Program-made: the position numbers and the translations under genes
Shown here: one piece after another, positions 19,833-62,796 of the stretch
Position numbering within the stretch: position 1 is the stretch's first letter
How the letters are laid out: the number at the start of each line of letters is the position of its first letter
The notes under the pieces: generated by a model
The model's database searches: none
The model's input: only the letters and a program-made list of their open reading frames with translations
What the model was told of the DNA's origin: nothing
DNA from: an uncultured Blautia sp.
GTDB lineage: Bacteria > Bacillota > Clostridia > Lachnospirales > Lachnospiraceae
Length of the DNA stretch: 64,000 nt
Reading direction: 5' to 3'
Assembly: GCA_946557785.1 (NCBI GenBank)
Contig: CAMNTH010000018.1
Span: 1 to 64,000 of the forward strand

Positions 19833-20711
19833 TCAGATTCCTGCCAGCTTCAAAATATCCGGTACCTTGGATTCCCAGCCCATTGCCATGATATGTACAC
19901 CCTGGCAGTACGGTTTACACTCTTTGATAATACGTGCGGAAATTTCTACGCCTGTAATTCCAGCTTTTGTCTTTTCTTTATCTGCTTTCAGTTCATTGAT
20001 CATTTCTTCCGGAATATGAACGCCTGCAACATTTGCATTCATATATCTGCACATTCCTACTGATTTCGGGATTACGATTCCAAGCTGAACCGGTTTTCCG
20101 AACTGTTTTGCCTTCTCCATAAACTGGATAAATTTCTCCGGCTCATAAACAGCCTGGGTCTGGAAATACTCTGCGCCTGCAGCAACCTTTCTTTCCATTT
20201 TTGCAAGCTGTGCGTCAAGAGAATCGCTGCATGGGGAAACAACTGCTCCCTTTGCAAATTTAGGCGGTTCACCAACCAGCTCGTTTCCGCCAAGGTCTAC
20301 GCCGGATTCCAGCTGTTTTACTGCATGAAGCAGAGAAACAGAGTCCAGGTCAAAGACCGGTTTTGCCTGGGGATGATCACCAAGCTTTGTATGGTCGCCT
20401 GTTAAAAGCAGCAGGTTCTCAATTCCAAACAGCGCTGCACTTAGGAGATCGGACTCCAGTGCAATACGGTTTCTGTCACGGCAGGTCATCTGGAAAATAG
20501 GGGTCAGGCCTTCATCCTTCAGTGCCTTACAGGTTGCCAGAGAACCAAGACGCATAACGGAAGACTGGTTATCCGTTACATTGACAGCTGTGATATCGCT
20601 CAGATAAGTCTTCGCTTCTTCCAGCATATGTTCAATATGAAATCCTTTTGGCGGACCTACTTCCGCAGTAACTACAAATTCACCACGTTCAAATGCTTCA
20701 GTAATTTTCAT
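19833..20711 (-). CDS. metF: 5,10-methylene-tetrahydrofolate reductase, catalytic subunit
   Basis: About 293 residues of the FAD/TIM-barrel MTHFR family: FVVTAEVGPPKGFH, ITAVNVTDNQSSVMRLGSLA, QMTCRDRNR, LLLLTGDH and the late AGVHIPEEMI. It reduces methylene-THF to methyl-THF in the methyl branch of the Wood-Ljungdahl pathway. The ATG at 20711 is favoured over a TTG five codons upstream because GGAG is nine bases before it. It lies 22-36 bases after metV. Together MetF, MetV and RnfC2 match the acetogen MetVF-RnfC2 complex known from Acetobacterium woodii, a ferredoxin/NADH-linked reductase of unresolved electron path. Confidence 0.92.
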   Translation of the reverse strand: MKITEAFERGEFVVTAEVGPPKGFHIEHMLEEAKTYLSDITAVNVTDNQSSVMRLGSLATCKALKDEGLTPIFQMTCRDRNRIALESDLLSAALFGIENLLLLTGDHTKLGDHPQAKPVFDLDSVSLLHAVKQLESGVDLGGNELVGEPPKFAKGAVVSPCSDSLDAQLAKMERKVAAGAEYFQTQAVYEPEKFIQFMEKAKQFGKPVQLGIVIPKSVGMCRYMNANVAGVHIPEEMINELKADKEKTKAGITGVEISARIIKECKPYCQGVHIMAMGWESKVPDILKLAGI

Positions 20712-20747
20712 GATACATTGCTCCAATCATTATAAATTTTAACAGTT

Positions 20748-21371
20748 TTATTGAGACACATCTTTATCTGTAGCGAAATTGCGCACCTGGGTCGGGCATT
20801 TTAAAGCGTCCAGGCGTCCCAACTGTTTCAGACGTCTGTAAATACGCTCCCATCCGCATTCCATTTCGCTGTCCACCTCACATTTGCCGTTTTTAGAGCC
20901 GCCGCACTGTCCGTTGACCAGACTCTTGGAGCAGGCAGTAATAGGACAAATTCCTCCGGTTAAATTCAGGTAGCATTCCCCGCATTGATCACAGTCATAC
21001 TCCAGCGCTGTCACGCCCTGGAAGCCTGGCAGCGGGTAGGTATCACATGCCGCACAGACCTTCTTTTCCTCCAGATACTCCGCAACGGTCTGCACGCCCA
21101 CGCCGCAGGATAATACCAGCACCGCATCTGCAGCTTCAATCTCACTTATATGCTTTTGAAGGCGCAGCTTCATATTATCCGGGTTGCATATGTAATCTGT
21201 TGTGATCACTCCGGTGAGACTTCCGGAAGCAGACAGTTCCTTCTGAAATTCCAAAGCTTCCTTCTCCGGGAAATGAACTTCCTTGCATCCATGGCAGTTA
21301 ACGATAAAAACCTTTTTTCCTTCTGCCAGCGATACGAGTGTTTCCTTATCTTTTAATTGGGTAATTAACAT
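20748..21371 (-). CDS. metV: MTHFR zinc/iron-binding partner subunit MetV
   Basis: 207 residues of the MTHFR_C (PF12225-type) family. Cysteine-rich: NCHGCKEVHFP near the N-terminus, LSCGVGVQTVAEY, then YDCDQCGECYLNLTGGICP and SKSLVNGQCGGSKNGKCEVD. These ligands hold Fe-S clusters and zinc in characterised MetVF enzymes. The ATG overlaps the rnfC2 end region (TGATATG), so translation is coupled. The same domain is repeated as the N-terminal third of the upstream gene. Confidence 0.9.
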   Translation of the reverse strand: MLITQLKDKETLVSLAEGKKVFIVNCHGCKEVHFPEKEALEFQKELSASGSLTGVITTDYICNPDNMKLRLQKHISEIEAADAVLVLSCGVGVQTVAEYLEEKKVCAACDTYPLPGFQGVTALEYDCDQCGECYLNLTGGICPITACSKSLVNGQCGGSKNGKCEVDSEMECGWERIYRRLKQLGRLDALKCPTQVRNFATDKDVSQ

Positions 21372-21372
21372 A

Positions 21373-23379
21373 TCACTTCATCCCCCTTACTGCATTTTTT
21401 CCCGCTTTAATCTTTGTGACTAACGGAATCTTGGAGGAACAGATGTGCTCGCAGCATCTGCATTCGAGACAATCCATGACATTTTTATCCTTCATGCCCT
21501 GCCAGTTCTCTTCATCTGCATATTTTGCGAAATACAAAGGAGTAAGTTCCATAGGACATACATCCATACAGCGGCCGCATTTGATACATGGCTGTTCTGC
21601 CGTATGGTCTGTGTCTACCGCAATGATTCCGTTGGAACCCTTCATGATTGGCACATTTGCGTCAGGAACCACAAAGCCCATCATCGGACCGCCTGCCTTA
21701 ATGGTAATATCATCACCTGTTACGCCGCCGCAATAGTCGATCAGATCCTGGGTATTGGTGCCGATCTTCACAATATAGTTGCCCGGCTTCTTGAGCTTCT
21801 CACCAGTTACAGTTACTACACGTTCAATTAACGGCATCCCCTTAAGGATAGCGTCTGCGATCGCCTTCGTAGTACTGATGTTGCTCACAACGCATCCTAC
21901 ATCTGCCGGCAGACCGCCTCTTGGAACCTGTCTTCCCATAACGCGCTTGATTAGCATCTTCTCAGCACCCTGCGGATATTTCGTCTTCGCTACTACAACA
22001 TCTATATCGCTGCACTGTGCAGTTTTTTCCTGCATAAGTTCAATCGCATCCTGCTTATTATCCTCAATTACAATAATACCCTTCTGAGCGCCTACGGTTT
22101 TCAGCATTGCTTTGAGCCCATAAATCACATCATCCGCATATTCCAAAAGAACTCTGTGGTCTGCAGTCAGAAGGGGCTCACACTCGCAGCCGTTCAGCAG
22201 AATCGTATCCACAGGTTTTGCAGGTTTTAATTTTACGGATGTGGGGAAACCTGCGCCTCCCATACCAACAATTCCAGCCTCGCGGACAATTTCAACAATT
22301 TCATCCGGCGTCAGATTCTCCGGATTTGCGTGGGGCTGTACTGATTCGTGCAGAGTATTTTTTCCGTCTGAGCGGATCACAACAGACATGCATTCTCCTC
22401 TTGTAGCATGCTTCCGCGATTCAATGGCAATAACCGTACCACTGACACTGGAATGTACCGGACTGCTTATAAAAGCTGCTGCTTCCCCGATCTTCTGGCC
22501 GACCATGACGGTATCTCCTACCTGTACCACAGGATTTGCAGGAGCTCCTGCATGCATGGAAAGCGGAATAACTACCACTTCCGGATCCGGAAATCTCTCC
22601 AGCGGGAGATGCTCCGTGAATTCCTTCCGTTCTGACGGATGAATTCCGCCGTAATAACCTTCGAACCGACTTTCACGGACTGATTTTACATAATCATTAA
22701 TTACTTTAAAATTAACCTTGGAATAGTCGCGCAGCTGTACCGGCTGGTTCAAAAATTCTTCAAGACGGCCCTGCTTCTCCAATCTTCTGTAGATTTTTTC
22801 CCATGCACAGTCTTTATTGCTGTCCACTTCGCATTTGCCGTTCTTCGCACCGCCGCACTGGCCGTTAACCAGGCTCTTGGAGCAGTCAACGATTGGGCAG
22901 ATGCCTCCGGTAATATTCAGATAGCACTGTGCACACGCATCACAGCTCTTCTTCGTCAGTGCCATACCATGATGGCCTGTATAATTCAATGAATTGCTGG
23001 CTGCAAATACGGGCGTTCCTGCCATATCCGCAACTGTCTGGATTCCCAAACCGCAGGAAATTACAAAAACATTTTCTGTACCTTCCGGGATCATATCCTG
23101 CAATTTCTTCTCAGTCTGGGTCTTGTTGCACAAAAAGTCAACTCTGGCACTGCCTGTAATGGTTTTTCCCTGTTCTGCAGCAAGCTTCTCAAACTCTGCA
23201 CAGTCCGGCTCGTCAACAGTTTCAAATTCCTTGAAGCACTTGTTACAAGCAATGATGAACAGATTGTCCTTATCGGCCAATAAGGACGTCAGCTCATCGC
23301 TGCTTTTCAACTGATACTTGGTATAGTTTTCCAATTGCTCACCTTCCTTATCAATTTGATATACAAACCTCATAATCAT
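21373..23379 (-). CDS. rnfC2: RnfC2: MetV-like domain fused to an RnfC-type flavin/Fe-S subunit
   Basis: 668 residues. Residues ~20-235 copy MetV, including CDACAQCYLNITGGICP and KSLVNGQCGGAKNGKCEVD. Residues ~245-668 are RnfC-like: AFISSPVHSSVSGTV, GIVGMGGAGFPTSVKL (FMN/NADH-site glycines), LLNGCECEPLLTADHR, and two [4Fe-4S] motifs, CIKCGRCMDVCP and CLECRCCEHIC. It probably passes electrons from NADH to MetVF in the cytosol. The start is uncertain: ATG at 23379 has a weak site, whereas a TTG at 23334 follows AAGGAAGGTGAG. First gene of the operon. Confidence 0.88.
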   Translation of the reverse strand: MIMRFVYQIDKEGEQLENYTKYQLKSSDELTSLLADKDNLFIIACNKCFKEFETVDEPDCAEFEKLAAEQGKTITGSARVDFLCNKTQTEKKLQDMIPEGTENVFVISCGLGIQTVADMAGTPVFAASNSLNYTGHHGMALTKKSCDACAQCYLNITGGICPIVDCSKSLVNGQCGGAKNGKCEVDSNKDCAWEKIYRRLEKQGRLEEFLNQPVQLRDYSKVNFKVINDYVKSVRESRFEGYYGGIHPSERKEFTEHLPLERFPDPEVVVIPLSMHAGAPANPVVQVGDTVMVGQKIGEAAAFISSPVHSSVSGTVIAIESRKHATRGECMSVVIRSDGKNTLHESVQPHANPENLTPDEIVEIVREAGIVGMGGAGFPTSVKLKPAKPVDTILLNGCECEPLLTADHRVLLEYADDVIYGLKAMLKTVGAQKGIIVIEDNKQDAIELMQEKTAQCSDIDVVVAKTKYPQGAEKMLIKRVMGRQVPRGGLPADVGCVVSNISTTKAIADAILKGMPLIERVVTVTGEKLKKPGNYIVKIGTNTQDLIDYCGGVTGDDITIKAGGPMMGFVVPDANVPIMKGSNGIIAVDTDHTAEQPCIKCGRCMDVCPMELTPLYFAKYADEENWQGMKDKNVMDCLECRCCEHICSSKIPLVTKIKAGKNAVRGMK

Positions 23380-30165: not shown

Positions 30166-30951
30166 TTATTTTCTACGCCAAATACTGGGTGAATTTCCAA
30201 CACATTCCTTGAATACCCTGCTGAAATGAAACTGGCTGGAGAATCCCAATTCTTCTGAAACTTCCCCAATGGATTTACTGGTATTCTTCAAAAGAAAACA
30301 TGCCATTTCCAATTTTTCACACATAATGTACTTTTTAGGAGAGCAGCCTGCATACTCCCAAAATAAAGACCTTAGTTCCCGCTCCCCGGTTCCTGTTGCA
30401 GCAGCGACCTGCGCAACTGTAACTATCGGAAGCTTCTGATGAATCATCTGCTGCGCTTTGTAAAACAGTTCCTTCTTTTCATCTCTATTCTCCGCCCGGC
30501 CAATCCGATACAAAAGCTCTGCCAGCACTCCGCCAAGAGCTGACGAAGCATATCCTGCCTTTCCCTGCTTGAGAAGAGTGATACATGTTTCACACTGACT
30601 TCCCAGCAAAAAATCCGGTTTTATATGAAAGCATTTGTCCATTTCCCACAAAAAATCCTCAGAGTAAAATTCAAACCACCAAAAGTCCCACCTTTCCCCT
30701 ATGGTTCGGTAAAAAAAATCGTTTTCTCCCGGACATAGCAAAAGCACGTCTCCTTGCTTTAGTTCAAACTCCTTTCCCTTCATACTAAGGAATCCATTCC
30801 CCCCTGTGACCATAAGTAAAACCTTCTTTTCTGATAAGAATGGTTTATGGTATACCTGATAAGAGGCATCCGCTTCTAAATGATAAACACAGTCAATCTT
30901 AAGGGCCAGGCTCTCTTCCTTCTGGCGGACCTCGCTGAAATCAACAAACAT
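30166..30951 (-). CDS. AraC family transcriptional regulator
   Basis: 261 residues. AraC-type ligand arm ~20-90 (KKVLLMVTGGNGFLSMKGKE, LKQGDVLLLCPGENDF). DNA-binding domain ~160-258 with VTVAQVAAATGTGERELRSL and SIGEVSEELGFSSQFHFSRV. Divergent from the URO-D gene at 31063 and upstream of the alpha-galactoside operon. It could serve either; the divergent layout favours the URO-D gene. Confidence 0.85.
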   Translation of the reverse strand: MFVDFSEVRQKEESLALKIDCVYHLEADASYQVYHKPFLSEKKVLLMVTGGNGFLSMKGKEFELKQGDVLLLCPGENDFFYRTIGERWDFWWFEFYSEDFLWEMDKCFHIKPDFLLGSQCETCITLLKQGKAGYASSALGGVLAELLYRIGRAENRDEKKELFYKAQQMIHQKLPIVTVAQVAAATGTGERELRSLFWEYAGCSPKKYIMCEKLEMACFLLKNTSKSIGEVSEELGFSSQFHFSRVFKECVGNSPSIWRRK

Positions 30952-31062
30952 AATTCCCCTTACTTTCCCGAAAAATATATAAAAAACTCCGTTTTTACCA
31001 TGGTATTTTCCGTTTATATATCTTATTCTGTATATTATAGTATAATATTAGGAGGTATAAAG

Positions 31063-32232
31063 ATGCAAGATAAACCTAAGTCATTTATTGATTCCCCCAA
31101 AATGAGCCCTTCCGCAAAAAAGATCCGTGATTTCTATGCATTACGTCCCGACGCTCCTATTTATCAAAAAGAATTCGGATATTACGTGCTTGACCGCTGG
31201 ATCAGCGAAGGTTATCTGAGACCTCGCAGCGGAGTCGCAGATTATGACGGCTATCTTAGAGAAGTATTCGGCTACGACGAACCAGCTGTTGATGAAGTAT
31301 ATGGCCTTGGCTGGTGTGAATCTGGTTTCTATCCGAAATTCGAGGAAAAAATCCTGGAGGATCTTGGGGATTATGAACTGGTGCAGGACTTTGCCGGAAG
31401 GAGCGTTCTCTATTTCAAAGGACGCCGCAACGGTTTTATGCCTGAATATAAGGATCATCCTGTAAAGGACTGGGAAACCTGGGAACGGGACGTAAAATGG
31501 CGCCTTGATCCCACTACACCCGGGCGAATGGAGCAGACTGACGAAGCGGTGGCAAAAGCCCTTGCCGGAGCAAAAAAAGGCAACGCAGCTGTACAGTGCA
31601 TGGTAGGCGGCTATATGTATCTCCGCAGTCTCATGGGGCCGGAACAGCTTCTCTATTTCTTCTATGATGAGCCAGAACTTATCCACGATTGTATGAAAAC
31701 CTGGTTTGAACTTGCAGATGCCGTTATTGCACACCATCAGGAAAAGCTGACTTTTGACGAATTGTTTTTAGGGGAAGATATTTGTTATAACAATGGCGCC
31801 CTGATTTCACCGGATATGATGCGTGAATTTTTGCTGCCCTACTATCAGCAGCTTTACACAAATATGAAGAAACGCAATTCAGATCCTTCCCGCAAACTGC
31901 ATTTTCAGATTGACACAGATGGGTACTGTGTAGATGTAATTGACATTTATAAAGAAATCGGATGTGACTATATGAGCCCGTTTGAAGTTGCTTCTCGCTG
32001 CGATGTGGTGAAGGTCGGCCAGTCTCATCCAGGACTTTTGATGTCAGGCGGCATAGACAAGCGAATCATCGCCCAGGGCGGTGATGAAATAAAGCGCCAT
32101 CTGGATTATATCATGCCCGCTATGCGCAAACGCGGAGGCTACATCCCCACCTGCGATCACGGCGTACCTGAAGAAGTTTCCTTTGAAAACTACATGCTTT
32201 ACCGCAAACTTATGAACGAATACTGCAAATAA
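31063..32232 (+). CDS. Uroporphyrinogen decarboxylase family protein
   Basis: 389 residues from the ATG at 31063, which follows TTAGGAGGTATAAAG; a 61-codon upstream extension has no ribosome site. URO-D fold features include FDELFLGEDICYNNGALISP, LPYYQQLYTNMKK and FEVASRCDVVKVG. The zinc-type HxC motif of MtaA/MtbA methyltransferases is not visible at the expected place (LHFQIDTDGYC). True HemE motifs at the N-terminus are also missing. So it is neither a clear HemE nor a clear corrinoid methyltransferase. Monocistronic, divergent from an AraC gene. Function unknown. Confidence 0.8.
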   Translation: MQDKPKSFIDSPKMSPSAKKIRDFYALRPDAPIYQKEFGYYVLDRWISEGYLRPRSGVADYDGYLREVFGYDEPAVDEVYGLGWCESGFYPKFEEKILEDLGDYELVQDFAGRSVLYFKGRRNGFMPEYKDHPVKDWETWERDVKWRLDPTTPGRMEQTDEAVAKALAGAKKGNAAVQCMVGGYMYLRSLMGPEQLLYFFYDEPELIHDCMKTWFELADAVIAHHQEKLTFDELFLGEDICYNNGALISPDMMREFLLPYYQQLYTNMKKRNSDPSRKLHFQIDTDGYCVDVIDIYKEIGCDYMSPFEVASRCDVVKVGQSHPGLLMSGGIDKRIIAQGGDEIKRHLDYIMPAMRKRGGYIPTCDHGVPEEVSFENYMLYRKLMNEYCK

Positions 32233-46394: not shown

Positions 46395-47447
46395 TCATTC
46401 ATAAATCCTGGATGCTTCGTCAAACAGCGCCTTTATATTTGCAGGCGGTACATCTGACTGAAGTCCTTCGTGACTGGGAGATATGATCAATCCTGTAGGG
46501 AAATAAGTTCTCAGTTCTTTTACCTTGGCTGAAACCATCTCCGGAGTTCCCTTCGTGAGCAGTTCCTGTGTATCCACCCCGCCGCAGAAGGAAATCCGTC
46601 CCTCAAATCTGGATTTCAGATTTGCCGCATCCATCCCTTCTGCCAGAGCCTGAATAGGATGAATAATATCTGCTCCTGCTTCGATCAAAAACGGAATCGC
46701 CTCCACAATAGAGCCGCAGGAATGATACATCACCTTTACACCATATCTGTGAGCCAGGGCAATCAGTCTCTTCGCTCCCGGAATCACAAACTCTTTGACC
46801 AGATCCGGGCTGATCATCAGTCCACGCTGGCTTCCCATATCGTCCCCGATCAAAATCGCCTGCACCTTTCCTTTCGTTGCTTCCAGGAAAATTGTCAGAG
46901 CCTTTATATAAAACTCTACAATGTGGTCGTCCACATAATGCACCATCTCCGGATCGGAAATCATGTTCATCAGACAGTTCTCCATACCGAATGCCGCACA
47001 GACATCCTGAAAATGGCACGCCCAGAGCATCCCCATAACCACTTTATCCTCCGGTGCTTCCTCAACAAGACGCCTGCACTCCTTCGGATCAATATATTCT
47101 GCAGGATCAGGCCATGGAAAATCAACTGCTTTTACATCCTCCAGATCCTCACAATGTGCAAAGCAGCCCTCGGCTGTCAGTGTACGATGCTCCGTATCTA
47201 CATTGCTTCCGTTCCTATACCAGTCAAATGCCGCAAAAATAGCATTACAGATTTCAGAATGATACGGAATCTCCACAGCATAAAAGTCATCTCCGCAGAC
47301 CTTTTTCAGTTCGTTGATATTCTCTACATGATAGTAATCGCAAAGAGCAGGCACTGCCTCAGGCGTAGGGTCTCCCAGCCAGCAGGCCGGTCTGTCTACA
47401 GGTCTTCTCTCAACTGTTGCAAAAAAGCGTTCTCTGCTGTTCATCAT
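46395..47447 (-). CDS. Uroporphyrinogen decarboxylase family protein with HxC motif
   Basis: 350 residues. MMNSRERFFATVERRPVDRP is the usual opening of this family. IGDDMGSQRGLMISPDLVKE and VKVMYHSCGSIVEAIPFLIE follow, then SFCGGVDTQELL. The His-Ser-Cys triplet recalls the zinc-binding HxC of MtaA/MtbA-type methylcobamide methyltransferases, but the third ligand is not certain. No corrinoid protein is adjacent. It is co-transcribed ahead of nothing else and lies 29 bases after the esterase gene. Start after GGGAGGGAGCA. Confidence 0.83.
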   Translation of the reverse strand: MMNSRERFFATVERRPVDRPACWLGDPTPEAVPALCDYYHVENINELKKVCGDDFYAVEIPYHSEICNAIFAAFDWYRNGSNVDTEHRTLTAEGCFAHCEDLEDVKAVDFPWPDPAEYIDPKECRRLVEEAPEDKVVMGMLWACHFQDVCAAFGMENCLMNMISDPEMVHYVDDHIVEFYIKALTIFLEATKGKVQAILIGDDMGSQRGLMISPDLVKEFVIPGAKRLIALAHRYGVKVMYHSCGSIVEAIPFLIEAGADIIHPIQALAEGMDAANLKSRFEGRISFCGGVDTQELLTKGTPEMVSAKVKELRTYFPTGLIISPSHEGLQSDVPPANIKALFDEASRIYE

Positions 47448-50894: not shown

Positions 50895-51530
50895 TCAGTC
50901 GCCCTTTAATACCACGCGTATTCTCTTATAAATCAGGAACACGATCAGGGAAGTAAGGGTAAATTTAAAAAGGTTAAACGGTAAAATGATCAATGCTGCA
51001 AATCCCAGCAGGTTATGGACGGAGCTATGCACTGCGGTTCCCATTTCAATGAATGCTTCCACTGGCATATTGAATGCTTTTCCATATGCAGGAAGAAGGA
51101 AAAATGCATTGATAAAACATGCAATAACAGAAGTCAGCACTGTACCAACCGCCATTCCCACAACCGCGTGTTTTCGGCTCTTCACATTACGGAACCGGTA
51201 GATCAGCCCTGCCGGAACAACAAAGGCGCATCCGAAGATAAAGTTGGCAAGGTCACCTACACCTGCTGTTATTGTCCCCTTGGTTACCAGATGCACCAAG
51301 ATCTTTACCAGTTCTGTGAGCACGCCGGCCACAGGTCCCATGGCAAAAGAAGCCAGAAGGACTGGGACTTCCGAGAAGTCCAGCTGATAAAAGGACGGTG
51401 CCAGGAAGGGAAGGGGAAATTCCAGATTCATCAAAATACCGGCAACCGCTCCAAGCATGGCAATCTGCGTGATCGACCTGGTGCGGCTCCTTTCCATTAC
51501 ATTTCCATTTCTCAATACCTGTTCACTCAT
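50895..51530 (-). CDS. ribU: Riboflavin ECF transporter S component RibU
   Basis: 211 residues, five or six membrane segments. Typical blocks are GILMNLEFPLPFLAPSFYQL-D, SEVPVLLASFAMGPVAGVL, and TKGTITAGVGDLANFIFGCA. Binds riboflavin and works with a shared EcfAA'T module encoded elsewhere. ATG after AAAAAGGAGAGAGAAAGT. The FMN riboswitch and terminator directly upstream confirm the substrate. Confidence 0.95.
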   Translation of the reverse strand: MSEQVLRNGNVMERSRTRSITQIAMLGAVAGILMNLEFPLPFLAPSFYQLDFSEVPVLLASFAMGPVAGVLTELVKILVHLVTKGTITAGVGDLANFIFGCAFVVPAGLIYRFRNVKSRKHAVVGMAVGTVLTSVIACFINAFFLLPAYGKAFNMPVEAFIEMGTAVHSSVHNLLGFAALIILPFNLFKFTLTSLIVFLIYKRIRVVLKGD

Positions 51531-54229: not shown

Positions 54230-55609
54230 TCAAGAAAGCTGTACTCCCATTTCGATCAGTTCAGCCTTCACTTCTTCATACATGCGCTCCCATTCCGGAA
54301 GTGGAGTGATGGTTTCCATATCGTATGCTTCATCAAAAGCAACACCAGGATTTCCTCCCTCTTTCTGGAAAACATACTCATATTTATCAAGAAGCTGCAG
54401 AACGATCTTATTAGCTTCGCTTCTGGTCATGCGCTGCCTTGTAACAGCTTTTCCAACCTCTGCCATCAAGCGGATTTCAAGACCTGTTCCATTGGGAGCA
54501 TTGCCGTTAGCTGCTCCGATTCCTTCCAGATGACCGCCGCAGACAGCAACAACGATGGTATTCGCTGCTACTTCATAAAGCAGTTCCTTGGTCATAGCTC
54601 CGCTGGCAGGCCACAGATCACACACAATGATAGCCGGAGCCTGGGTAGCAAAGGTCTGGCAAAGCACTGCCTGAAGCCATAAGCATCCTCTTGCCGTGGT
54701 GGCTACATCGGAAATATGAATCGGATGGCACAGATGATAATCTGCATTGCAGATCAGATTTGCCGCCAGGATAGATGCGATCATTACCATCGCAGCCCCC
54801 GGCGCATCTCCTCCAAGGCCTCCTACCATGGTACAGGCCAGAGAAGCATTTCTCATACCATAATCAAAAGAGTTGGCTGCGCGAAGAAGATTTCCGCTGT
54901 CAATCATCAATTCATTAAAGGTTGCCACAAGATGAGAGTCGCAGGGGCGCAGTGCACGGTCATAGGAAGCTGCATAATCGCCGATCTCCGTTACGGAGCT
55001 TTCTGCTGCCAGAAGACCCATGCCTTCTCGTCCTACTTCTTTTAATGCCTTATGAAGGTACTGAAGCTCTTTTCTTACAGCAAATACCTCTGTTACGTCT
55101 CCGCTTCTTACAGGATAACCATCCACATCCACCAAAGAGCCGCAGGTTAAAAGATCGATCAGGGGCTCCTTTGCCACACTCTGGATAATCGGATAGTAAA
55201 GTCTCTCCGGTGTAGGACAGCCCGGGTTTCCTGCCCAGATCAGAGGCTCCCTCTCATCTTCTACCTTTCTTGCTTCAAGAGTCACTGCGTCTTTTCCTTC
55301 TCCCATTACAAGAGAGGTTTTCATATTCCTGATACCCTCTTCAATCTCTTCTTCTGTGAAGGATATCACACGCTGGGTAGAAAGATTGTACATACCGCTT
55401 TCCAGGATCAGCTTTTTGGACGCTTCAAACATGTCCTGGAACAGCTTTTCATCTTCCGGGATGATCACCTGCTTATCCCAGGAAAAGTCATAATCTTCTA
55501 CAAGCTCCATGACATTTTCAACCACATAGTCCATGTCCCAGTCATCCTTGGAAACCTTTGGCCCCGTCTGTCCTCTCTGGCACAGCTCTAAAAATTTCTT
55601 ATGATCCAT
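54230..55609 (-). CDS. Monomethylamine methyltransferase (MtmB) homologue without pyrrolysine
   Basis: 459 residues, the same length as archaeal MtmB (458). From memory of Methanosarcina MtmB, matching blocks run the whole length. MYNLSTQRVISFTEEEIEEG aligns with the IYCTDTHRIVKYTEDEI block. GREGMGLLAAESS aligns with GRPGMGV-Pyl-GPETS. CDSHLVATFNELMID aligns with TDSHEVSQLNELKID. The C-terminal NGTGLEIRLMAEVGKAVTRQ, YDMETITPLPEW matches closely. The Pyl202 position is Leu200 (CTG at 55012-55010), and no in-frame TAG exists. MtmB proteins move a methyl group from methylamine to a corrinoid protein. Without Pyl the substrate must be activated differently, as known for non-Pyl MttB relatives that use quaternary amines. 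Last gene of the adenine deaminase/BMP operon, two bases after the bmp stop. Confidence 0.85.
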   Translation of the reverse strand: MDHKKFLELCQRGQTGPKVSKDDWDMDYVVENVMELVEDYDFSWDKQVIIPEDEKLFQDMFEASKKLILESGMYNLSTQRVISFTEEEIEEGIRNMKTSLVMGEGKDAVTLEARKVEDEREPLIWAGNPGCPTPERLYYPIIQSVAKEPLIDLLTCGSLVDVDGYPVRSGDVTEVFAVRKELQYLHKALKEVGREGMGLLAAESSVTEIGDYAASYDRALRPCDSHLVATFNELMIDSGNLLRAANSFDYGMRNASLACTMVGGLGGDAPGAAMVMIASILAANLICNADYHLCHPIHISDVATTARGCLWLQAVLCQTFATQAPAIIVCDLWPASGAMTKELLYEVAANTIVVAVCGGHLEGIGAANGNAPNGTGLEIRLMAEVGKAVTRQRMTRSEANKIVLQLLDKYEYVFQKEGGNPGVAFDEAYDMETITPLPEWERMYEEVKAELIEMGVQLS

Positions 55610-55610
55610 A

Positions 55611-56717
55611 TTATTTTCCGCCTTTTACGTTTTCAACAAAGAAGTCCTGAGCCAGAATATCTTCATCGCTCATTGTTTCACCTTCAGCAACCAGAACATT
55701 GCCCTTATCATCCTTGATCTCGCCGCCGTAAATGTTGATCTCGCCGCTGGCAATCTTATCTTTTACTTCCACAACCTTAGCCTGAACGTCTTCCGGTACT
55801 AAATCGGCGTTGAACTCTGCAAGCTGTGAACACTCGCCGCCTTCATAATAATTTGCGGAAATATCAATGCTTCCGTCAGCGGTCTTCTGGAAGATATCTT
55901 CAAAGATCGGTGCCCAGTTCCACACAAAGGAGGTCATAACTGCCTTAGGAGCAGATTCCTGCATATTAATGTTATATCCTACACAAAAAGCACCATTTTC
56001 TTCACAGGTCTGAGGTACTGCCGGAGAGGAAGCCTCCATACCCATGTATTTCACACCGCTGTCGATAAGGGTTTTTGCATTGTTGGATTCAATGTCCAGA
56101 TCATACCAGCTGTCTGCCCATACAACCTGTACGGTAGCATCCGGATTAGCATATTTTGCGCCAAGGGCAAATGCATTAATAGCAGTACGTACAGATCCTT
56201 CATCCATGCTGGCTTCAAATCCAAGTTCATTGGAGCCTTCATTCATGAGGGCACACAAATATCCTGCCTGGAACATACCCTCATATCCGCGGATCTGGAA
56301 TTCTACCAGATTGTCATAAACATCATTGTTCTGCTGAGCAAAAACTACCTCCGGAAATTCTTCCTGAAGCTCAGATAAAATGGATGCATATCCTGTGGAG
56401 CAGCCGATGATGATATCTGCACCATTATCAACCAGTTCTTCTACTGCTGATTCGATCAAAGCCGGATCTTCTTCAGAAATCTCTTCCATTGTAAGAAGAT
56501 TTGTGGATGTATCAATTCCCAGGTTTTCACATGCCTTTAAAACACCTTCGTGCATAGCCTGAGCCCATCCTCCGTCTTCTACTACAGAGTAATGCAGTTC
56601 ACCGATCACCAGCTCGCTAACGTCTTTTCCTTCTTCTGCAAAAACAGTAGTTCCTCCAAAGCACATAGCAATAGCGGATGATGCGGCCAGTACAAGGCCA
56701 AGAGTTTTTTTCTTCAT
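55611..56717 (-). CDS. BMP-family ABC transporter substrate-binding protein
   Basis: 368 residues. Signal peptide KKKTLGLVLAASSAIAMCFG; AMC is not a good lipobox and cleavage after VFA is likely. BMP (Med/PnrA-like) features are DGGWAQAMHEGVLKACENLG, DIIIGCSTGYASILSELQEE, EFQIRGYEGMFQAGYLCALM and GYNINMQESAPKAVMTSFVW. Family members with known ligands bind purine nucleosides. Ribosome site AAAGGAG. Directly precedes the mtmB-like gene, so uptake and methyl transfer are coupled genetically. Confidence 0.9.
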   Translation of the reverse strand: MKKKTLGLVLAASSAIAMCFGGTTVFAEEGKDVSELVIGELHYSVVEDGGWAQAMHEGVLKACENLGIDTSTNLLTMEEISEEDPALIESAVEELVDNGADIIIGCSTGYASILSELQEEFPEVVFAQQNNDVYDNLVEFQIRGYEGMFQAGYLCALMNEGSNELGFEASMDEGSVRTAINAFALGAKYANPDATVQVVWADSWYDLDIESNNAKTLIDSGVKYMGMEASSPAVPQTCEENGAFCVGYNINMQESAPKAVMTSFVWNWAPIFEDIFQKTADGSIDISANYYEGGECSQLAEFNADLVPEDVQAKVVEVKDKIASGEINIYGGEIKDDKGNVLVAEGETMSDEDILAQDFFVENVKGGK

Positions 56718-56843: not shown

Positions 56844-57770
56844 CTAACGGCTCTCTCGATCGTATGGCTTACAAAGAGCTGCTGGCTGTGCAGTATGTGA
56901 TTTTCTGAAATTTCCCGTAGTCAGAATAAAAGCCACGATGGTTGCAATATAAGGAAGAGCGCTGTAGATCTCCGTGGGCACGCTTGGAAGATAAATCTGC
57001 AGATTACTTCCCAGGCAGCTGATAAATCCAAAGAGCAATGCTCCCATCATCAGTTTAAATGGATTCCAGGAAGAAAATGCCACAAGGGCAAAAGCGATCC
57101 ACCCTTTACCTGCAGTCATGCCGCTGCTCCAGAAGTTCGTATTGGCCAAAGAGACACAGGCGCCGCTCACAGCCATCATGGCACATCCGAAGGTCACATA
57201 AGCATAACGCATAGCAAATACGTTCATTCCTGCAGAGTCAAGGGCTGCAGGATTCTCCCCCAATGCCCTGAGATAAAGTCCCTGCTTTGTTTTATAAATA
57301 TAGAACAGGGAAGCAGGCACAATAAAATACATTGCATAAACCAACAAGTTCTGCTGGAAGAATATTGGTCCTAAAAACGGAAGTTTCCCTAAAAGAGGAA
57401 TGGAAATATTTTCAAACTTTAGGTTTGCAGCAACTCCTGCCACGTCCTTTCCCAAAAATCCGCTTAAGCCTGTTCCAAAAATGAGCATCGCCATGCCGCA
57501 CACCGTCTGGTCTGCCTGAAGCGTTACGGTAAGGAATGCAAACACCAGTCCGAACACAGCGCCTGTAAGAAGGACAACCAAAAATGACAGGAGAAGATTA
57601 TGGGTATTTACCGCAGTAATATAACCGGATACAGCGCCCATCAGCATAATGCCCTCTACACCAAGGTTCATCACACCTGCCCGCTCGGAAAAGGTTTCAC
57701 CGATTCCAGCATACATAACAGATACTGCATAGACGATCGCTCCTGAAAAAAGAGAGATTAATAAATTCAT
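56844..57770 (-). CDS. BMP-type ABC transporter permease (YufQ-like)
   Basis: 308 residues, branched-chain/BPD_transp_2 fold with eight or more membrane segments; GETFSERAGVMNLGVEGIML is the family signature. Partner of the upstream permease, overlapped by 4 bases. Unlike most copies it ends in a basic tail (YDRESR). Confidence 0.92.
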   Translation of the reverse strand: MNLLISLFSGAIVYAVSVMYAGIGETFSERAGVMNLGVEGIMLMGAVSGYITAVNTHNLLLSFLVVLLTGAVFGLVFAFLTVTLQADQTVCGMAMLIFGTGLSGFLGKDVAGVAANLKFENISIPLLGKLPFLGPIFFQQNLLVYAMYFIVPASLFYIYKTKQGLYLRALGENPAALDSAGMNVFAMRYAYVTFGCAMMAVSGACVSLANTNFWSSGMTAGKGWIAFALVAFSSWNPFKLMMGALLFGFISCLGSNLQIYLPSVPTEIYSALPYIATIVAFILTTGNFRKSHTAQPAALCKPYDRESR

Positions 57771-58837
57771 GATGCCCTTCCTCCTTTCTTATCTGAAACG
57801 ATCTTATATCTCTGAAAAAAGTCACCTGCGATCACAATGATCATGATTGCCCCCTGCATCATAGTTGCAATCTGCGCAGGAACGCCCATTACCTGTACCG
57901 TTGCACTGCTGTTCTGCAGTCCTGCAAAAAGGATTGATACAATAATTACCACCAGGGGGTTAAAACGGCTCAGATAAGCAATTACAATTCCGGTATATCC
58001 TGCATTATTCGGCATATTCTCCTGGACTCTCCCTGTAATTCCAGCATACTGGACAAATCCGGCAAGTCCGGCAAGTCCGCCGCTTAAGGCAAGTACCAGG
58101 ATAATGTTCTTTTTAATATTGATTCCTGCATATTTGGCAGCCGTCAGGCTCTTGCCGATTACATTGATCTGATAACCGCTCGCCGTATATTTATAGAATC
58201 CAAACAGCAGCAAAGCGATGACAATAACTACAGGAAATGCAGTGCTGATCTTAAGTCCCGAAATCTCCGGCAGAGCAAGGTTTTCTGCAATTTTCTCCGT
58301 CTGTCCCACATTCTGCCCTTTAGCTTTCCAGGGACCAAGGCACAAATAACTTAACAGGATCAGTGCAATATAGTTCAGCATCAAAGTGGTAATACTCTCA
58401 TCCACATCCCAAAAGGCCTTTGGAGCTGCTGACAGCAGAGCCCAGAGGGCACCACCTGTAAAGCAGCACACTGCCAAAGCCAAAATTCCAAGAATTCCTG
58501 GAAGTTTCGGTCCGTACAAGGCAAAAGCAGCACCGAAGATCGCCCCCACTGCATACTGTCCCTCCGCACCAATATTGTTCAGATTCATGCGGAAAGCAAC
58601 GGATACCCCAAGACCGCAGAGCATCAAAGGAAGACCGGATTCAATGGCCTTACGGATACCTCTTGAGGATAAAAATGCCTTGCTGAACATTTTGCCGTAA
58701 ACTTCCAGCGGATTGAATCCTACGGCGCCGATAATAAATCCGCAGAACACCAGAGCCAGAGCCACAAACAGCAGGGAATTCAGCAAAATGGAAAGTCCGG
58801 AGCTGGTGCTTTTTTTCTCTAATCGTAGTTTTCTCAT
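57767..58837 (-). CDS. BMP-type ABC transporter permease (YufP-like)
   Basis: 356 residues, about nine membrane segments; NLNNIGAEGQYAVGAIFGAA is the signature. Overlaps the ATPase stop and the next permease start by 4 bases each. Part of the nucleoside/purine uptake system. Confidence 0.92.
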   Translation of the reverse strand: MRKLRLEKKSTSSGLSILLNSLLFVALALVFCGFIIGAVGFNPLEVYGKMFSKAFLSSRGIRKAIESGLPLMLCGLGVSVAFRMNLNNIGAEGQYAVGAIFGAAFALYGPKLPGILGILALAVCCFTGGALWALLSAAPKAFWDVDESITTLMLNYIALILLSYLCLGPWKAKGQNVGQTEKIAENLALPEISGLKISTAFPVVIVIALLLFGFYKYTASGYQINVIGKSLTAAKYAGINIKKNIILVLALSGGLAGLAGFVQYAGITGRVQENMPNNAGYTGIVIAYLSRFNPLVVIIVSILFAGLQNSSATVQVMGVPAQIATMMQGAIMIIVIAGDFFQRYKIVSDKKGGRAS

Positions 58838-60345
58838 AATTTCTCTCCTGACATTAATCTTCCAATGGTGTCGTAATCCGCATCCTCACGGTTCAAAACT
58901 GCCATCATATTTCCATCACACATAACTCCGATCCTGTCTGCCATTTGGAACAGCTCGTCCAATTCCTCTGAAACAAGAAGAATGGCTGTACCTTTTTCGC
59001 TTTCTTCCAGGAGGATTTTATGAATGGCTTCTGTCGCACCAATATCAAGCCCCCTGACAGGATAGGACGCTACCAGAAGAGAAGGACTTCCATTGATCTC
59101 CCGGGCGATCAAAAGCTTTTGCTGATTGCCGCCTGACATAAGCCCTACAGGAGAATGAACGCCTGCAGTCTTAATTTCATATTTCTGTATGTAATCCTTT
59201 GTTATTTCATCTATAGCTTTCTTTTTCAGAATGCCCTTACGACTGAATTTCTCCCAGCCAAAATGCTTTAAGATCATATTCTCCGAAAGGTCCAGACCAG
59301 GGACAAGTCCCATGGAAAGTCTGTCCTCAGGAATAAAGGAAACACCTTTATCAATATGCTTTCGGATGCTTAATTTTGTAAGATCTTCGCCTTTTACTGT
59401 AATTTTTCCATTCTCTGCCCTGCGAAGTCCGGCAACGGCCTCTGTCAGTTCCTTCTGTCCATTTCCCGCTACACCGGCAATTCCGAAAATTTCACCTGCA
59501 TGGACAGAAAAAGAAACATGGTTCACCGCATTTAAGCCTTTATCATTTTTTACAGACAGATCTTCTACGTAAAGAACCGTTTCTTCTGAATAATTATGGC
59601 TGTCACGGATCTGAGGCACAAATTCACGCTCTCCCACTACTGCTTTGGTCAGACGCTGTACTGTAGCATCCTTCGCTTCCATCGTATCTTCCACCCTGCC
59701 ATTTTTCAGGACGGTAATCCTGTCTGCATTCTGCATAACTTCGTTCATTTTATGGGAAATGATAATGACGCTTTTTCCGCTGTCCGCCATTCTCCGAAGA
59801 ACCTTAAACATCTCCACTGCTTCCTGTGCCGTCAAAACAGCGGAGGGTTCATCCAGGATCAGAATCTCCGCTCCCCGGTAAAGCAGCTTTACGATTTCCA
59901 CTCTCTGCTGCTCTCCCACAGAAAGCTGCCATACCTTTGCAGAAGCATCCACATCCAGATGAAATTCCTTCGAGCAGGCAGTTATAGCGTCCTCCATTTC
60001 CTTCTGGCGAAGCACCGTACTGCAGTTAGGCATATAAAGAAAAACATTTTCTGCTACAGACAAAGGCGGAATCAGACGGAAGTGCTGATGCACCATACCG
60101 ATTCCCATATCCACAGCCTGCTTAGGAGATTTAATAGAAACTTTTTTTCCCTGATAATAAATTTCCCCTGAATTTGGTTTATAGATTCCCGTAAGAACGT
60201 TCATAAGGGTACTTTTTCCTGCGCCGTTCTCTCCCAGCAACGCATGGATTTCCCCAGGATAAAGAGACAAATTCACATTTTCATTGGCTGTCACATCACC
60301 AAAGCGTTTGGTGATGTTCCGCATTTCAATAACCGGTTCTTTCAT
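58834..60345 (-). CDS. BMP-type ABC transporter ATPase with two ABC domains (YufO-like)
   Basis: About 503 residues. First domain with LLGENGAGKSTLMNVLTG (Walker A), LSVGEQQRVEI (signature), LILDEPSAVL. Second domain degenerate, with GIAGVAGNGQKELTEAVAGL and MSGGNQQKLLIAREI, ASYPVRGLDIGA, as usual in this family. ATG at 60345 after AGGAGAACAACC, only 10 bases after the adenine deaminase stop. Confidence 0.92.
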   Translation of the reverse strand: MKEPVIEMRNITKRFGDVTANENVNLSLYPGEIHALLGENGAGKSTLMNVLTGIYKPNSGEIYYQGKKVSIKSPKQAVDMGIGMVHQHFRLIPPLSVAENVFLYMPNCSTVLRQKEMEDAITACSKEFHLDVDASAKVWQLSVGEQQRVEIVKLLYRGAEILILDEPSAVLTAQEAVEMFKVLRRMADSGKSVIIISHKMNEVMQNADRITVLKNGRVEDTMEAKDATVQRLTKAVVGEREFVPQIRDSHNYSEETVLYVEDLSVKNDKGLNAVNHVSFSVHAGEIFGIAGVAGNGQKELTEAVAGLRRAENGKITVKGEDLTKLSIRKHIDKGVSFIPEDRLSMGLVPGLDLSENMILKHFGWEKFSRKGILKKKAIDEITKDYIQKYEIKTAGVHSPVGLMSGGNQQKLLIAREINGSPSLLVASYPVRGLDIGATEAIHKILLEESEKGTAILLVSEELDELFQMADRIGVMCDGNMMAVLNREDADYDTIGRLMSGEKL

Positions 60346-60355
60346 GGTTGTTCTC

Positions 60356-62056
60356 CTATTGTATTTGATGCCAGCAATCATGCTCTGCGTCGTAAATTCC
60401 CATAGGCGTGATGCGCACTTTTGGAATCACCGGCAATGCCAGGAACGACAAGGTAACAAAGGGATCTATTTCTTTTGGAATTCCCATACTTCTTGCAAGC
60501 TCAATCATATTTTTCAGATTAGATGCCACTTCCTCATGAGAGGATGCGCTCATCAGTCCCATAATCTCCAAAGGCTGTGTCAAAGGCTTCCTTCCTTTTT
60601 TCACAACCGTATATCCGCCGTGACAATTCATCAGTTCCTGTACGGCCTGTTCCATAGCTTCATTGTCATCTCCGATCACAATAAGATTGTGAGAATCATG
60701 ACCCACAGTAGAAGCAACAGCTCCTCCTTTTATGGAAAAGCCCTTCACGATTCCTTTTCCCACCATACCGGTACTGTGATGCCGTTCAAATACAAAAATC
60801 TTCTGGTAGTTGTCATCCGGCTGGAATTGCCCGTCCCTGACGGTAACAGGCTCAAAAGTAAAATCTGTAAGAATCTCTCCCGGTACCACATGGATTACCG
60901 GCTGTTCCTCCCGGGTAAGGCGCATCTGGAATACCTCGGCTCCCGGATAAGCAATATGTACTGTATTCAAAAGATTTTCCGGAATATTTGCCCTTTGGAC
61001 TTCTTCATTCCCCACCAGCTTTCCTTTATGGTAGACAGAATGGATCTGTACTGTTTTATAATCATCCAGCACTGCCAGATCTGCCTGATAGCCCGGCGCA
61101 ATGGCGCCAAGATGGTCCAGCCCATAACAGCGAGCCGTGTTATAAGAAGCCATCCTGTATGCATCCTCCGGTTTTACACCAAGGGAAATAGCCTTTCGGA
61201 TATTGTAGCTGATATGGCCATTTTTAATAATATCCTCTATATGCTTGTCATCTGTACAGAAAGAAAAGGCATCTGCAGGAATTTGATTCTTCACGATTCC
61301 AGCTACGATTGCTTCCAGATTTCTGGCTGCCGTTCCCTCACGGATCAAAATCTGAATACCGTTTCTTGCCTCACGAACCGCATCCTCATAAGTAGTGCAT
61401 TCATGATCTGTGCGAATGCCTGCCAAACGGTAGCACGCCCCCTGCTTTTCTCCAAGGCTGCCCCCATGCCCATCCATAACACGTCCTTTTTTCCGAAAAA
61501 GATCCAGCTTCTCCATCATATCTTCCCTGCAGTCAAGTACAGCCTGTACATCCATAACCTCGCCAAGTCCCAAAATATGAGGGTCTTCTATAAAGGTCTT
61601 CATTTGCTCTGCACAGATAAGAGCGCCATTTTTTTCAAAAGAAACGGAGGGAACACAGGAAGGCATCATAAAAAAGACATTGGCACTGCATTGGCTGGCA
61701 TCGTCAATCATATACCGGACGCCATCCATGCCTGATACATTGGCAGCTTCATGGGGATCCACAATAAAGGTAGTAGTTCCCTTAAGCAAAGCCTGACTGA
61801 TTAGCTGAGAAGGATTCAGAAGAGTGGATTCAAGATGAAGATGGGCGTCCATGAAACCGGGAACTACATACTTTCCACATAAGTCCGTCTCATGCTCCCC
61901 TTCATAGGAGCCTACGCCTAAGATAGTATCATCCATAAGAGCAATATCACCCGAAACCCATTCATTTGTAAAAATATTAAGGACCGTAGCGTTCTTTAAA
62001 ACAAAAGGAGCTTTCTTTCGTCCAAGTGCGCACGCCGCAATTTCTTTATGATACAT
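60356..62056 (-). CDS. ade: Adenine deaminase (AdeC family)
   Basis: 566 residues of the amidohydrolase superfamily. Metal motif DAHLHLESTLLNP, the glutamate loop ILGLGEVMD, VMDGHGGSLG, RTDHECTTYEDAV, FCTDDKH, and the C-terminal domain GGAVASTVGHDSHNLIVIGD, typical of AdeC. Converts adenine to hypoxanthine and ammonia. Some enzymes in this superfamily are reported to use N6-methyladenine and release methylamine. The start at 62056 follows GGGGAGAGAAGATT; the 26 upstream codons overlap a terminator hairpin. First gene of the operon. Confidence 0.93.
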   Translation of the reverse strand: MYHKEIAACALGRKKAPFVLKNATVLNIFTNEWVSGDIALMDDTILGVGSYEGEHETDLCGKYVVPGFMDAHLHLESTLLNPSQLISQALLKGTTTFIVDPHEAANVSGMDGVRYMIDDASQCSANVFFMMPSCVPSVSFEKNGALICAEQMKTFIEDPHILGLGEVMDVQAVLDCREDMMEKLDLFRKKGRVMDGHGGSLGEKQGACYRLAGIRTDHECTTYEDAVREARNGIQILIREGTAARNLEAIVAGIVKNQIPADAFSFCTDDKHIEDIIKNGHISYNIRKAISLGVKPEDAYRMASYNTARCYGLDHLGAIAPGYQADLAVLDDYKTVQIHSVYHKGKLVGNEEVQRANIPENLLNTVHIAYPGAEVFQMRLTREEQPVIHVVPGEILTDFTFEPVTVRDGQFQPDDNYQKIFVFERHHSTGMVGKGIVKGFSIKGGAVASTVGHDSHNLIVIGDDNEAMEQAVQELMNCHGGYTVVKKGRKPLTQPLEIMGLMSASSHEEVASNLKNMIELARSMGIPKEIDPFVTLSFLALPVIPKVRITPMGIYDAEHDCWHQIQ

Positions 62057-62090
62057 AATCTTCTCTCCCCAATTCCTTTTTGAGTTGAAT

Positions 62091-62233
62091 AAAAAAAGGT
62101 CAAACGGAAAAAGTTCGACCTTATTATGCTCCATATCAAAAAAAGCTTCTATGATATGCGTTTTATTTGAATTTTAAATCATACCTATTCATTTGTCAAT
62201 ATATAAGTAGGCACAATTGTACAAATCATGCCT
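62091..62233 (-). promoter_or_regulatory. Promoter, operator and leader hairpins of the ade-BMP-mtmB operon
   Basis: Promoter TTGACA (62199-62194), 17 bases, TAAAAT (62176-62171); start near 62164. A partial dyad 10 bases upstream, AGGCATGATT/AATTGTGCCT (62233-62209), has 8 of 10 complementary positions and a TTGTACAA centre; repeats of AGGCAT lie further up. The leader carries CATATCA/TGATATG (62158-62132), then AAGGTCGAAC/GTTTGACCTT with TTTTTTT (62122-62091), a complete terminator ahead of ade. This indicates attenuation. Confidence 0.72.
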
Positions 62234-62279: not shown

Positions 62280-62796
62280 AGATTTAAATGATAGTCCCTT
62301 ACCATCTTTTCTGCTGTCAGAAGGGCTTCCGGGTTCCATACCAAATGGCCTCCTTAGGAATCTCCATCTGAAAAATAACAAAATCACAGTTTTTCAGAAG
62401 CTCATCGTTCTCCTTTAAATACTGCACATCACATTTACTGTTTGTTCCAGGTGCAACCACAATGCTGTTGCTTCCTTCTTTATCAACCAGAATAATGCGA
62501 TACCGATAGAAAGCTGCCCCCTCTCCCCAATATGAAATACATCCACTCCGGCCTTCAAAAGATTTTCCGTCTGATCTTTCCCAAACTGATCAGTTCCAAC
62601 ACATCCCAGCATCGCCACATTGCCCCCGAGCTTTCCGGCAGCAGATGCCTGGTTTGCCCCTTTTCCTCCGGGAACATGGGTAATATTCCCGCCTAAAATC
62701 GTTTCCCCCTTCAAAGGCATCTGCTCTATGGGAATTACCATGTCCATATTCACGCAGCCAATAATCAGAATTCTTTTTCATCTGTTCCATATCCAT
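62280..62796 (-). pseudogene. rbsK: Ribokinase (PfkB) remnant
   Basis: Ribokinase motifs survive: VNMDMVIP, GGKGANQASAAGKLGGNVAM, FGKDQTENLLKAGVDV and, in another frame, SIVVAPGTNSKCDV and IFQMEIPKEAIWYGTR. Frameshifts lie in the A-run near 62775 (after MEQMKK) and near 62500. The C-terminal half with the catalytic Asp is missing. It sits just upstream of the ade promoter in the same direction, so nucleoside-ribose salvage may once have been part of the operon. Confidence 0.82.

Follow-up and report, generated by a model that had tools for sequence, protein, structure and literature searches.

A pyrrolysine-free MtmB subfamily of gut Lachnospiraceae, linked to an ABC importer, as a candidate corrinoid-dependent demethylase of N-methylated purines

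The window, a stretch of 64,000 nucleotides from an uncultured Blautia sp., contains an mtmB-like gene whose product belongs to a real, conserved pyrrolysine (Pyl)-free MtmB subfamily of gut Lachnospiraceae and their kin. The protein is likely to be a corrinoid methyltransferase. Specifically, we propose, at roughly even chances, that it is a corrinoid-dependent demethylase (MtxB) of an N-methylated purine or similar heteroaromatic compound and that it feeds acetogenesis; we infer both the substrate and the corrinoid partner. The methylpurine reading is based on the protein fold, the replaced active site, the operon, the linkage to an importer, an AtzT-like binding protein and the purine context of the wider family. 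The corrinoid role is based on a stand-alone corrinoid protein (MtxC) with a RACo-type activator and a PocR regulator in the genome, on the co-occurrence of MtxC with the gene, and on the arrangement of PocR in one related locus. The earlier note on this DNA had recognized the Pyl-free protein. It mentioned neither the operon nor the purine-type binding protein, nor did it remark that a corrinoid protein is lacking nearby or that the wider Pyl-free family has a purine-catabolism context.

Family and fold of the MtmB-like protein

The open reading frame, whose strand had been left unstated, is real and lies on the minus strand. It and its neighbouring features are as follows.

54230..55609, minus strand: mtmB-like gene, 459 aa, Pyl-free (PF05369, 313.5 bits; aligned to 1L2Q; model TM 0.94 to 1NTH)
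55010..55012, minus strand: CTG codon of Leu200, which faces Pyl202 of MtmB (alignment and codon reading)
55611..56717, minus strand: BMP/PnrA-type substrate-binding lipoprotein (PF02608), 1 base before the start of the mtmB-like gene
56844..57770, minus strand: ABC permease 2 (PF02653)
57767..58837, minus strand: ABC permease 1 (PF02653), overlapping permease 2
58834..60381, minus strand: ABC ATPase (PF00005)
60356..62134, minus strand: adenine deaminase, ade (TIGR01178, 547.8 bits, cut-off 472.5)
62096..62122, minus strand: hairpin resembling a terminator, in the leader ahead of the likely ade start; similar sequence in L002, L004 and L007
62171..62199, minus strand: promoter-like TTGACA-17-TAAAAT before ade, 11/12 matches; similar sequence in L002, L004 and L007

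A profile search matches residues 8-455 to the Pfam family MtmB (PF05369) with E 3e-93 and a score far above the cut-off of 25 bits. Residues 9-455 align to Methanosarcina barkeri MtmB1 (1L2Q/1NTH) in the PDB with E 6e-60. No NCBIfam model matched the protein, and a plasmid search with it gave no match. The AlphaFold model, calculated with an alignment (A2) of 23 of the 27 clade rows, has pLDDT of 89.6 and pTM of 0.92. The model superimposes on 1NTH with rmsd of 1.8 Å at 28% sequence identity, and 1NTH, 1TV2 and 1L2Q are all matched at TM of 0.94; the next-ranked matches are MttB and MtgB structures, with TM near 0.5. Thus, the protein scores above the curated cut-off of the family over its full length and adopts the MtmB TIM-barrel fold, consistent with the earlier claim that it is colinear with archaeal MtmB. 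Residue 200 is located on strand 199-201 of the model, and residues 226/227, 257/259, 291/298 and 330/331 are located on later strands.

The dN/dS ratio against six close relatives is 0.03-0.06, indicating that the gene is under purifying selection. A decayed relict was considered and rejected on the same values.

Replacement of the active site

Pyl202 of MtmB, described as anchored to a barrel strand (PMC9842639), faces Leu200 in the alignment to 1L2Q, and the codon is CTG, as had been read earlier. Leu occupies this site in all 26 related loci and in 31/31 clade rows and is absent from it in the 31 Pyl-free rows outside the clade, while Pyl202/TAG is present in 9/9 Pyl rows. The gene therefore lacks the Pyl202 from an in-frame TAG that would mark MtmB function. 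The genome, which is 95.8% complete, gave no match to pyrrolysyl-tRNA synthetase PylS (TIGR02367).

The replacement extends beyond the Pyl site. Glu229, Glu259 and Gln333 of MtmB, which we take to be active-site residues, are invariant in the 9 Pyl rows and are replaced by Leu, Leu and Asp in the clade, so that this second mark of MtmB function is also absent. The earlier note had proposed a listing of the Pyl, Glu and Gln sites; for Pyl202, Glu229, Glu259 and Gln333 it reads Leu, Leu, Leu and Asp in 31/31 clade rows. The position of Tyr335 is occupied by Trp (29 rows) or Tyr (2 rows), and Glu205, His228, Asn234 and Glu235 are kept in the clade (31 rows). The alignment of 71 family rows, the clade among them, has 28 columns in which at least 95% of the rows agree. 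With Pyl and three more active-site residues of MtmB replaced, the substrate is likely to be a compound other than monomethylamine. The active-site sets of the other Pyl-free groups differ from that of the clade, suggesting that the Pyl-free groups probably differ in substrate.

Phylogeny of the Leu clade

The genome scan identified 26 related loci, 54-95% identical and for the most part carrying Lachnospiraceae or Blautia labels; because near-identical loci (L018/L019/L025, L020/L022 and L008/L009) are kept, the counts given here are not counts of independent events. Both in the first PF05369 tree, of 71 rows, and in a mixture-model tree of 51 of these rows, the Leu-bearing sequences form one group (support of 100/100 in the latter). 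The Pyl rows form a separate group (100/100), and the other Pyl-free rows fall between the two. The order among the Pyl-free groups is unsure owing to long branches; the nearest outsiders to the clade are L058 and L064. The trees leave out L024, which is partial, and include only five of the 12 carriers from the family sample (G807, G619, G714, G723 and G737). Also excluded were PF05369 fragments that are truncated or broken (G042, G060 and parts of G047, G315 and G186), the Pyl fragment from G108 and duplicate Pyl copies from G097 and G131. One genome of the window's family (G536; L207/L218) carries a pyrrolysine-type mtmB with in-frame TAG.

Operon and linkage to an importer

Along the minus strand, the operon runs from adenine deaminase through the ABC ATPase, the two permeases and the BMP-type binding protein to the mtmB-like gene, with gaps of -26, -4, -4, 126 and 1 base. 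As judged from homologues, the true ade start is probably near 62056. The promoter-like sequence comes from a scan without overall excess (19 sites vs 18.0 in shuffles). The hairpin is a possible attenuator, from a scan with 12 hairpins vs 10.2 in shuffles and with no covarying pair in four species. No riboswitch for the operon was found: Rfam matches in the ade leader are at chance level, and there are none in 8 purine-type loci. Over the whole window, Rfam gave only an FMN riboswitch and a tRNA. The FMN riboswitch (RF00050, 51654-51795, minus strand) lies upstream of 50895-51530 (minus strand), the product of which has sub-threshold matches to ECF-type S components and is probably a riboflavin importer. 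Upstream of ade, a 112-aa ORF (62415-62753, minus strand) matches only the first third of ribokinase and has the look of a truncated gene.

The BMP importer is present in the stretch of 19/26 relatives, and another permease, P521, is present in 3 more, so that 22/26 have either; L008, L009, L011 and L026 have neither, and the contig of L026 is 5.2 kb long. In L023 and in the deep branch L221 (52% identity), mtmB precedes the importer genes; the gene order is changed and the importer is kept. Five further loci of the family sample show the same alternatives, with the importer in L221, L223 and L224 and P521 in L222 and L225. Because mtmB stays with an importer through rearrangement and through exchange of the importer type, its function is probably tied to the imported compound. 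P521 is a membrane protein of 517-521 aa (L010:11444-12997, L017:6659-8224, L027:11397-12962 and, partial, L062:1-936). No significant match in Pfam, NCBIfam or the PDB was obtained for the proteins of L010, L017 and L027; inspection by eye tentatively suggests a distant NCS2/AzgA-type nucleobase permease.

Purine genes are less constant neighbours. Adenine deaminase is near mtmB in 4/26 relatives (L002, L003, L007 and, divergently, L010), and tblastn found xanthine dehydrogenase, 8-oxoguanine deaminase and PucR beside clade mtmB in 0/26.

Ligand site of the binding protein

The nearest solved structures to the binding protein are AtzT (6pi5) and 3s99. AtzT is reported to bind guanine at 0.11 µM, with the base sandwiched by Tyr45 and Trp194, and 3s99 was modelled with adenine (PMC6834077). 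We aligned 18 clade binding proteins, from the window and 17 of the 19 importer loci (L006 and L016 are absent). The aromatic clamp and Ser97 are common to AtzT and the clade. Specifically, the position of Tyr45 is Trp (15) or Phe (3), and Trp194 and Ser97 are kept in 18/18. In contrast, Glu165, Asn218 and Asn220, which read the base in AtzT (guanine/2-hydroxyatrazine), are replaced in 18/18 by Ser, Glu and Ser (17) or Thr (1). The ligand of the clade protein is therefore predicted to be a flat aromatic compound other than plain guanine, and it may be no purine at all. The 11 binding proteins of other Pyl-free loci are more varied, with Glu165 in 2, Ser97 in 6 and Trp194 in 8. Sub-threshold matches to a putative B6 importer were also obtained, at 59 bits (cut-off 400) for the binding protein of the window and at 445 bits (cut-off 670) for the L023 ATPase.

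Candidate corrinoid partner

A corrinoid protein is found near clade mtmB in 0/26 stretches, several of which end soon after mtmB, and none was found on the window's contig. Apart from a MetH-like frame of 950 aa, a single stand-alone MtxC (PF02607 and PF02310) was found in the window's own genome; PF02310 alone is found in a 601-aa frame and in one weak match. MtxC (G000:C3, near 20 kb) adjoins a RACo-type activator (PF14574, 243 bits) and a divergent PocR regulator, and no MtxB was seen among the neighbouring ORFs. Thus, of a three-component system, the genome has the corrinoid protein and RACo, but the corrinoid protein is not near the methyltransferase.

A stand-alone MtxC frame shorter than 400 aa is present in 22/26 clade genomes; of the four without it, three appear to be G450, G429 and G449 (72-85% complete). 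Among 20 MtxC regions from clade genomes, identity to the MtxC of the window's genome is at least 74% in 11, of which 10 also have a RACo-type protein, and 57-59% in 3, all with RACo; the other 6 hold less similar or unlabelled proteins. In the family sample of 348 genomes, with the clade gene in 12 and a close MtxC (E <=1e-70) in 36, close MtxC occurs in 9/12 genomes with clade mtmB vs 27/336 without (Fisher 9e-8, kinship uncorrected); G619, G714 and G723 have clade mtmB but no close MtxC. Within the genus (64 genomes), mtmB is present in 6, MtxC with at least 69% identity in 9, and both in only 3; the three mtmB carriers without such an MtxC have genomes of 72-85% completeness, in which mtmB is close to the end of its contig.

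The L003 locus may connect the two genes. An orthologue of PocR (80% identical) is divergent from the ade-mtmB operon, where the window's genome has MtxC and RACo, and two genes read by eye as hflK and hflC stand beside this operon with PocR. The L003 intergenic region also shares A-rich repeats with the MtxC-PocR region, a weak indication. Together, the PocR arrangement and the shared repeats suggest that the clade mtmB operon and MtxC belong to one regulon.

In G439, G448, G400 and G425, which have no clade mtmB, the orthologous MtxC adjoins UroD-type proteins, one of which matches PF01208. The stand-alone MtxC may therefore serve UroD-type enzymes instead. The window itself encodes two UroD-type proteins, one at 46395-47447 (minus strand; PF01208, with MtaA/CmuA-type models matched below cut-off) and one at 30880-32232 (plus strand; read by eye only), and these may compete for the single corrinoid protein.

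Downstream, CODH/ACS is present in the genome (two CdhC matches, PF03598), consistent with the earlier acetogen label. PF00809 matches only a 274-aa frame, presumably FolP, a 267-aa frame on the ACS contig, presumably AcsE, and the MetH-like frame; none of the three proteins is clearly a dedicated methylcorrinoid:THF methyltransferase, and no such enzyme was found in the genome. Genes of an acetogen-type methylene-THF reductase (MetF, MetV and a MetV-RnfC2-like fusion) were recognized by eye at 19833-23379 (minus strand).

Purine context of other Pyl-free MtmB

PF05369 is matched in 28 of 398 genomes of the same phylum. Outside the clade, 28 Pyl-free loci (26 from the phylum scan and two from a Lachnospiraceae-family genome, G772) were compared with 10 Pyl loci. 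A corrinoid protein is present in 28/28 Pyl-free and 10/10 Pyl stretches, and the gene-order list places it next to mtmB everywhere but at one of L077's two mtmB genes. Core purine genes, meaning at least one of XdhA, an 8-oxoguanine-deaminase-like amidohydrolase, PucR and adenine deaminase (tblastn, E 1e-10), are found in 18/28 Pyl-free vs 0/10 Pyl stretches (Fisher 5e-4, a guide only because several loci share a genome or genus, stretches span 3-20 kb and three Pyl stretches are shorter than 12 kb). The gene names are supported in family representatives by XdhA at 1212 bits (cut-off 916), 8-oxoguanine deaminase at 637 and 532.7 bits (cut-off 532), methyl-THF:corrinoid methyltransferase at 369 bits (cut-off 259) and, for PucR, PF07905. 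Nine of the 28 Pyl-free stretches have no purine-type gene, counting L064, though clustering puts a PucR-type protein beside its mtmB. A RACo-type activator at L092:9566-11836 (minus strand) has no Pfam family match in its first ~220 residues.

Discussion

We propose that the adjacent transporter would import a flat N-methylated heteroaromatic compound, most likely a methylated purine base, which would bind in the TIM barrel where MtmB holds the Pyl-methylamine adduct. The N-methyl group would then be handed directly to the Co(I) centre of a corrinoid protein. This transfer would need no Pyl adduct, since a purine anion leaves readily enough. The partner would be the genome's single stand-alone MtxC, re-activated by the adjoining RACo-type protein; the methyl group would enter the Wood-Ljungdahl pathway, and the demethylated purine would go to adenine deaminase and salvage. 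Against this proposal stand the failure to find a corrinoid protein in the 26 clade stretches, the four clade genomes in which no stand-alone MtxC was found, the possible use of MtxC by UroD-type enzymes, the failure to find a dedicated methylcorrinoid:THF methyltransferase, the three clade carriers of the family sample that lack the close MtxC, the 27 genomes with a close MtxC and no clade gene, the mere 3 of 64 genus genomes with both, the scarcity of purine genes near clade mtmB, and the loss of the guanine-reading residues of AtzT. A wider proposal, in which most Pyl-free MtmB of anaerobic Bacillota, the clade included, would be cob(I)alamin-dependent demethylases of N-methylated purines such as methylxanthines, 7-methylguanine and other modified bases, is more tentative, and we put it somewhat short of even.

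Four other explanations were considered. The clade protein could act on an N-methyl heteroaromatic compound that is no purine, such as an N-methylpyridinium (trigonelline or N1-methylnicotinamide) or a vitamin-like base. The binding protein, with its aromatic clamp kept and its base-reading residues unlike those of AtzT, and the sub-threshold matches to the B6 importer would agree with such a ligand; we nevertheless regard it as unlikely, given adenine deaminase in the operon and near mtmB in four relatives (divergently in L010) and the purine genes adjoining other Pyl-free subfamilies. A quaternary amine methyltransferase using the same corrinoid machinery, with choline, tetramethylammonium or similar as the substrate, is suggested by MtqB, presented as the first Pyl-free MtmB homologue with shown function, and by the Pyl-free MttB relatives described as acting on quaternary amines (PMC13044021). 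However, clade mtmB is linked to a BMP/AtzT-like importer, the operon showed none of the betaine or choline type, and other Pyl-free subfamilies have purine genes beside them; we rate this explanation as rather improbable.

The contrast between 0/26 clade stretches and 28/28 other Pyl-free or 10/10 Pyl stretches with a corrinoid protein raises the question whether the clade protein uses a corrinoid at all. It could be a TIM-barrel protein turned to a new use, the binding or conversion of a purine, with the orphan MtxC serving UroD-type methyltransferases, beside which its orthologues stand where clade mtmB is absent and one of which is encoded in the window. The 28 family-wide conserved columns, the presence of MtxC in 22/26 clade genomes, its co-occurrence with the gene and the PocR common to both in L003 argue for a corrinoid enzyme, and we give a corrinoid-independent role little credence. 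Least probable by far, in our view, is a pathway in which N6-methyladenine is deaminated by adenine deaminase and the monomethylamine set free is then demethylated, without pyrrolysine, by the MtmB-like protein. The place of ade as the first gene of the operon fits such a pathway, related amidohydrolases are reported to free dimethylamine from N2,N2-dimethylguanine (PMC13054789), and MtqB is described as slightly active on monomethylamine (PMC13044021); but Pyl, Glu229, Glu259 and Gln333 are all lost, and ade is near mtmB in only 4/26 relatives.

What is new relative to prior work is the genomic context of clade mtmB, namely the operon, the importer and the purine neighbourhood. A published MtmB-family tree contains 1,061 Pyl and non-Pyl sequences, most of the latter being described as of unknown function (PMC13044021), and gene contexts give a concrete candidate substrate class for these numerous proteins. 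In the open-licence literature, we found no corrinoid enzyme for caffeine, methylxanthine, 7-methylguanine or methylated purines. If the methylpurine reading is true, it would open an anaerobic way of removing methyl groups from methylpurines of caffeine type or derived from RNA, an oxygen-free counterpart of the aerobic caffeine demethylases, by which gut acetogens would turn dietary and RNA-derived methylpurines into acetate. It would also bear on the gain or loss of pyrrolysine in the MtmB family.

The earlier proposal of a new subfamily holds in that the Leu clade is conserved and its substrate is likely not monomethylamine; the accompanying statement that no Pyl-free MtmB had been characterised is outdated. 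MtqB of Methanococcoides methylutens Q3c, published in March 2026, is described as a Pyl-free MtmB homologue that acts on tetramethylammonium and choline (PMC13044021). Both MtqB and the clade protein are of the MtmB family without Pyl, and MtqB serves mainly substrates other than monomethylamine; compared by description rather than by sequence, MtqB differs in being archaeal and in standing beside its corrinoid protein MtqC (PMC13044021). Another Pyl-free protein of the MtmB superfamily is reported to have risen most in strain DCMF grown on dichloromethane (PMC9768040). The UroD-type O-demethylases and dehalogenase (MtvB, OdmB, VdmB and CdmB) share the logic of methyltransferase, corrinoid protein and activator, with the methyl group passed to tetrahydrofolate in acetogens, but they are described as members of the UroD superfamily, not PF05369, with methoxyaromatic or haloalkane substrates (PMC13222342). 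The other Pyl-free MtmB of the phylum (such as L073, L067 and L075) resemble the clade in family, in the absence of Pyl and in purine-type neighbours, and differ in their constant corrinoid protein and their other active-site residues. MtmB of M. barkeri shares with the clade protein the full-length fold and the 28 conserved columns; unlike it, the clade protein, at 28% identity, has lost Pyl, Glu229, Glu259 and Gln333 and is encoded in a bacterial operon with an ABC importer and adenine deaminase, where no corrinoid protein was found nearby.
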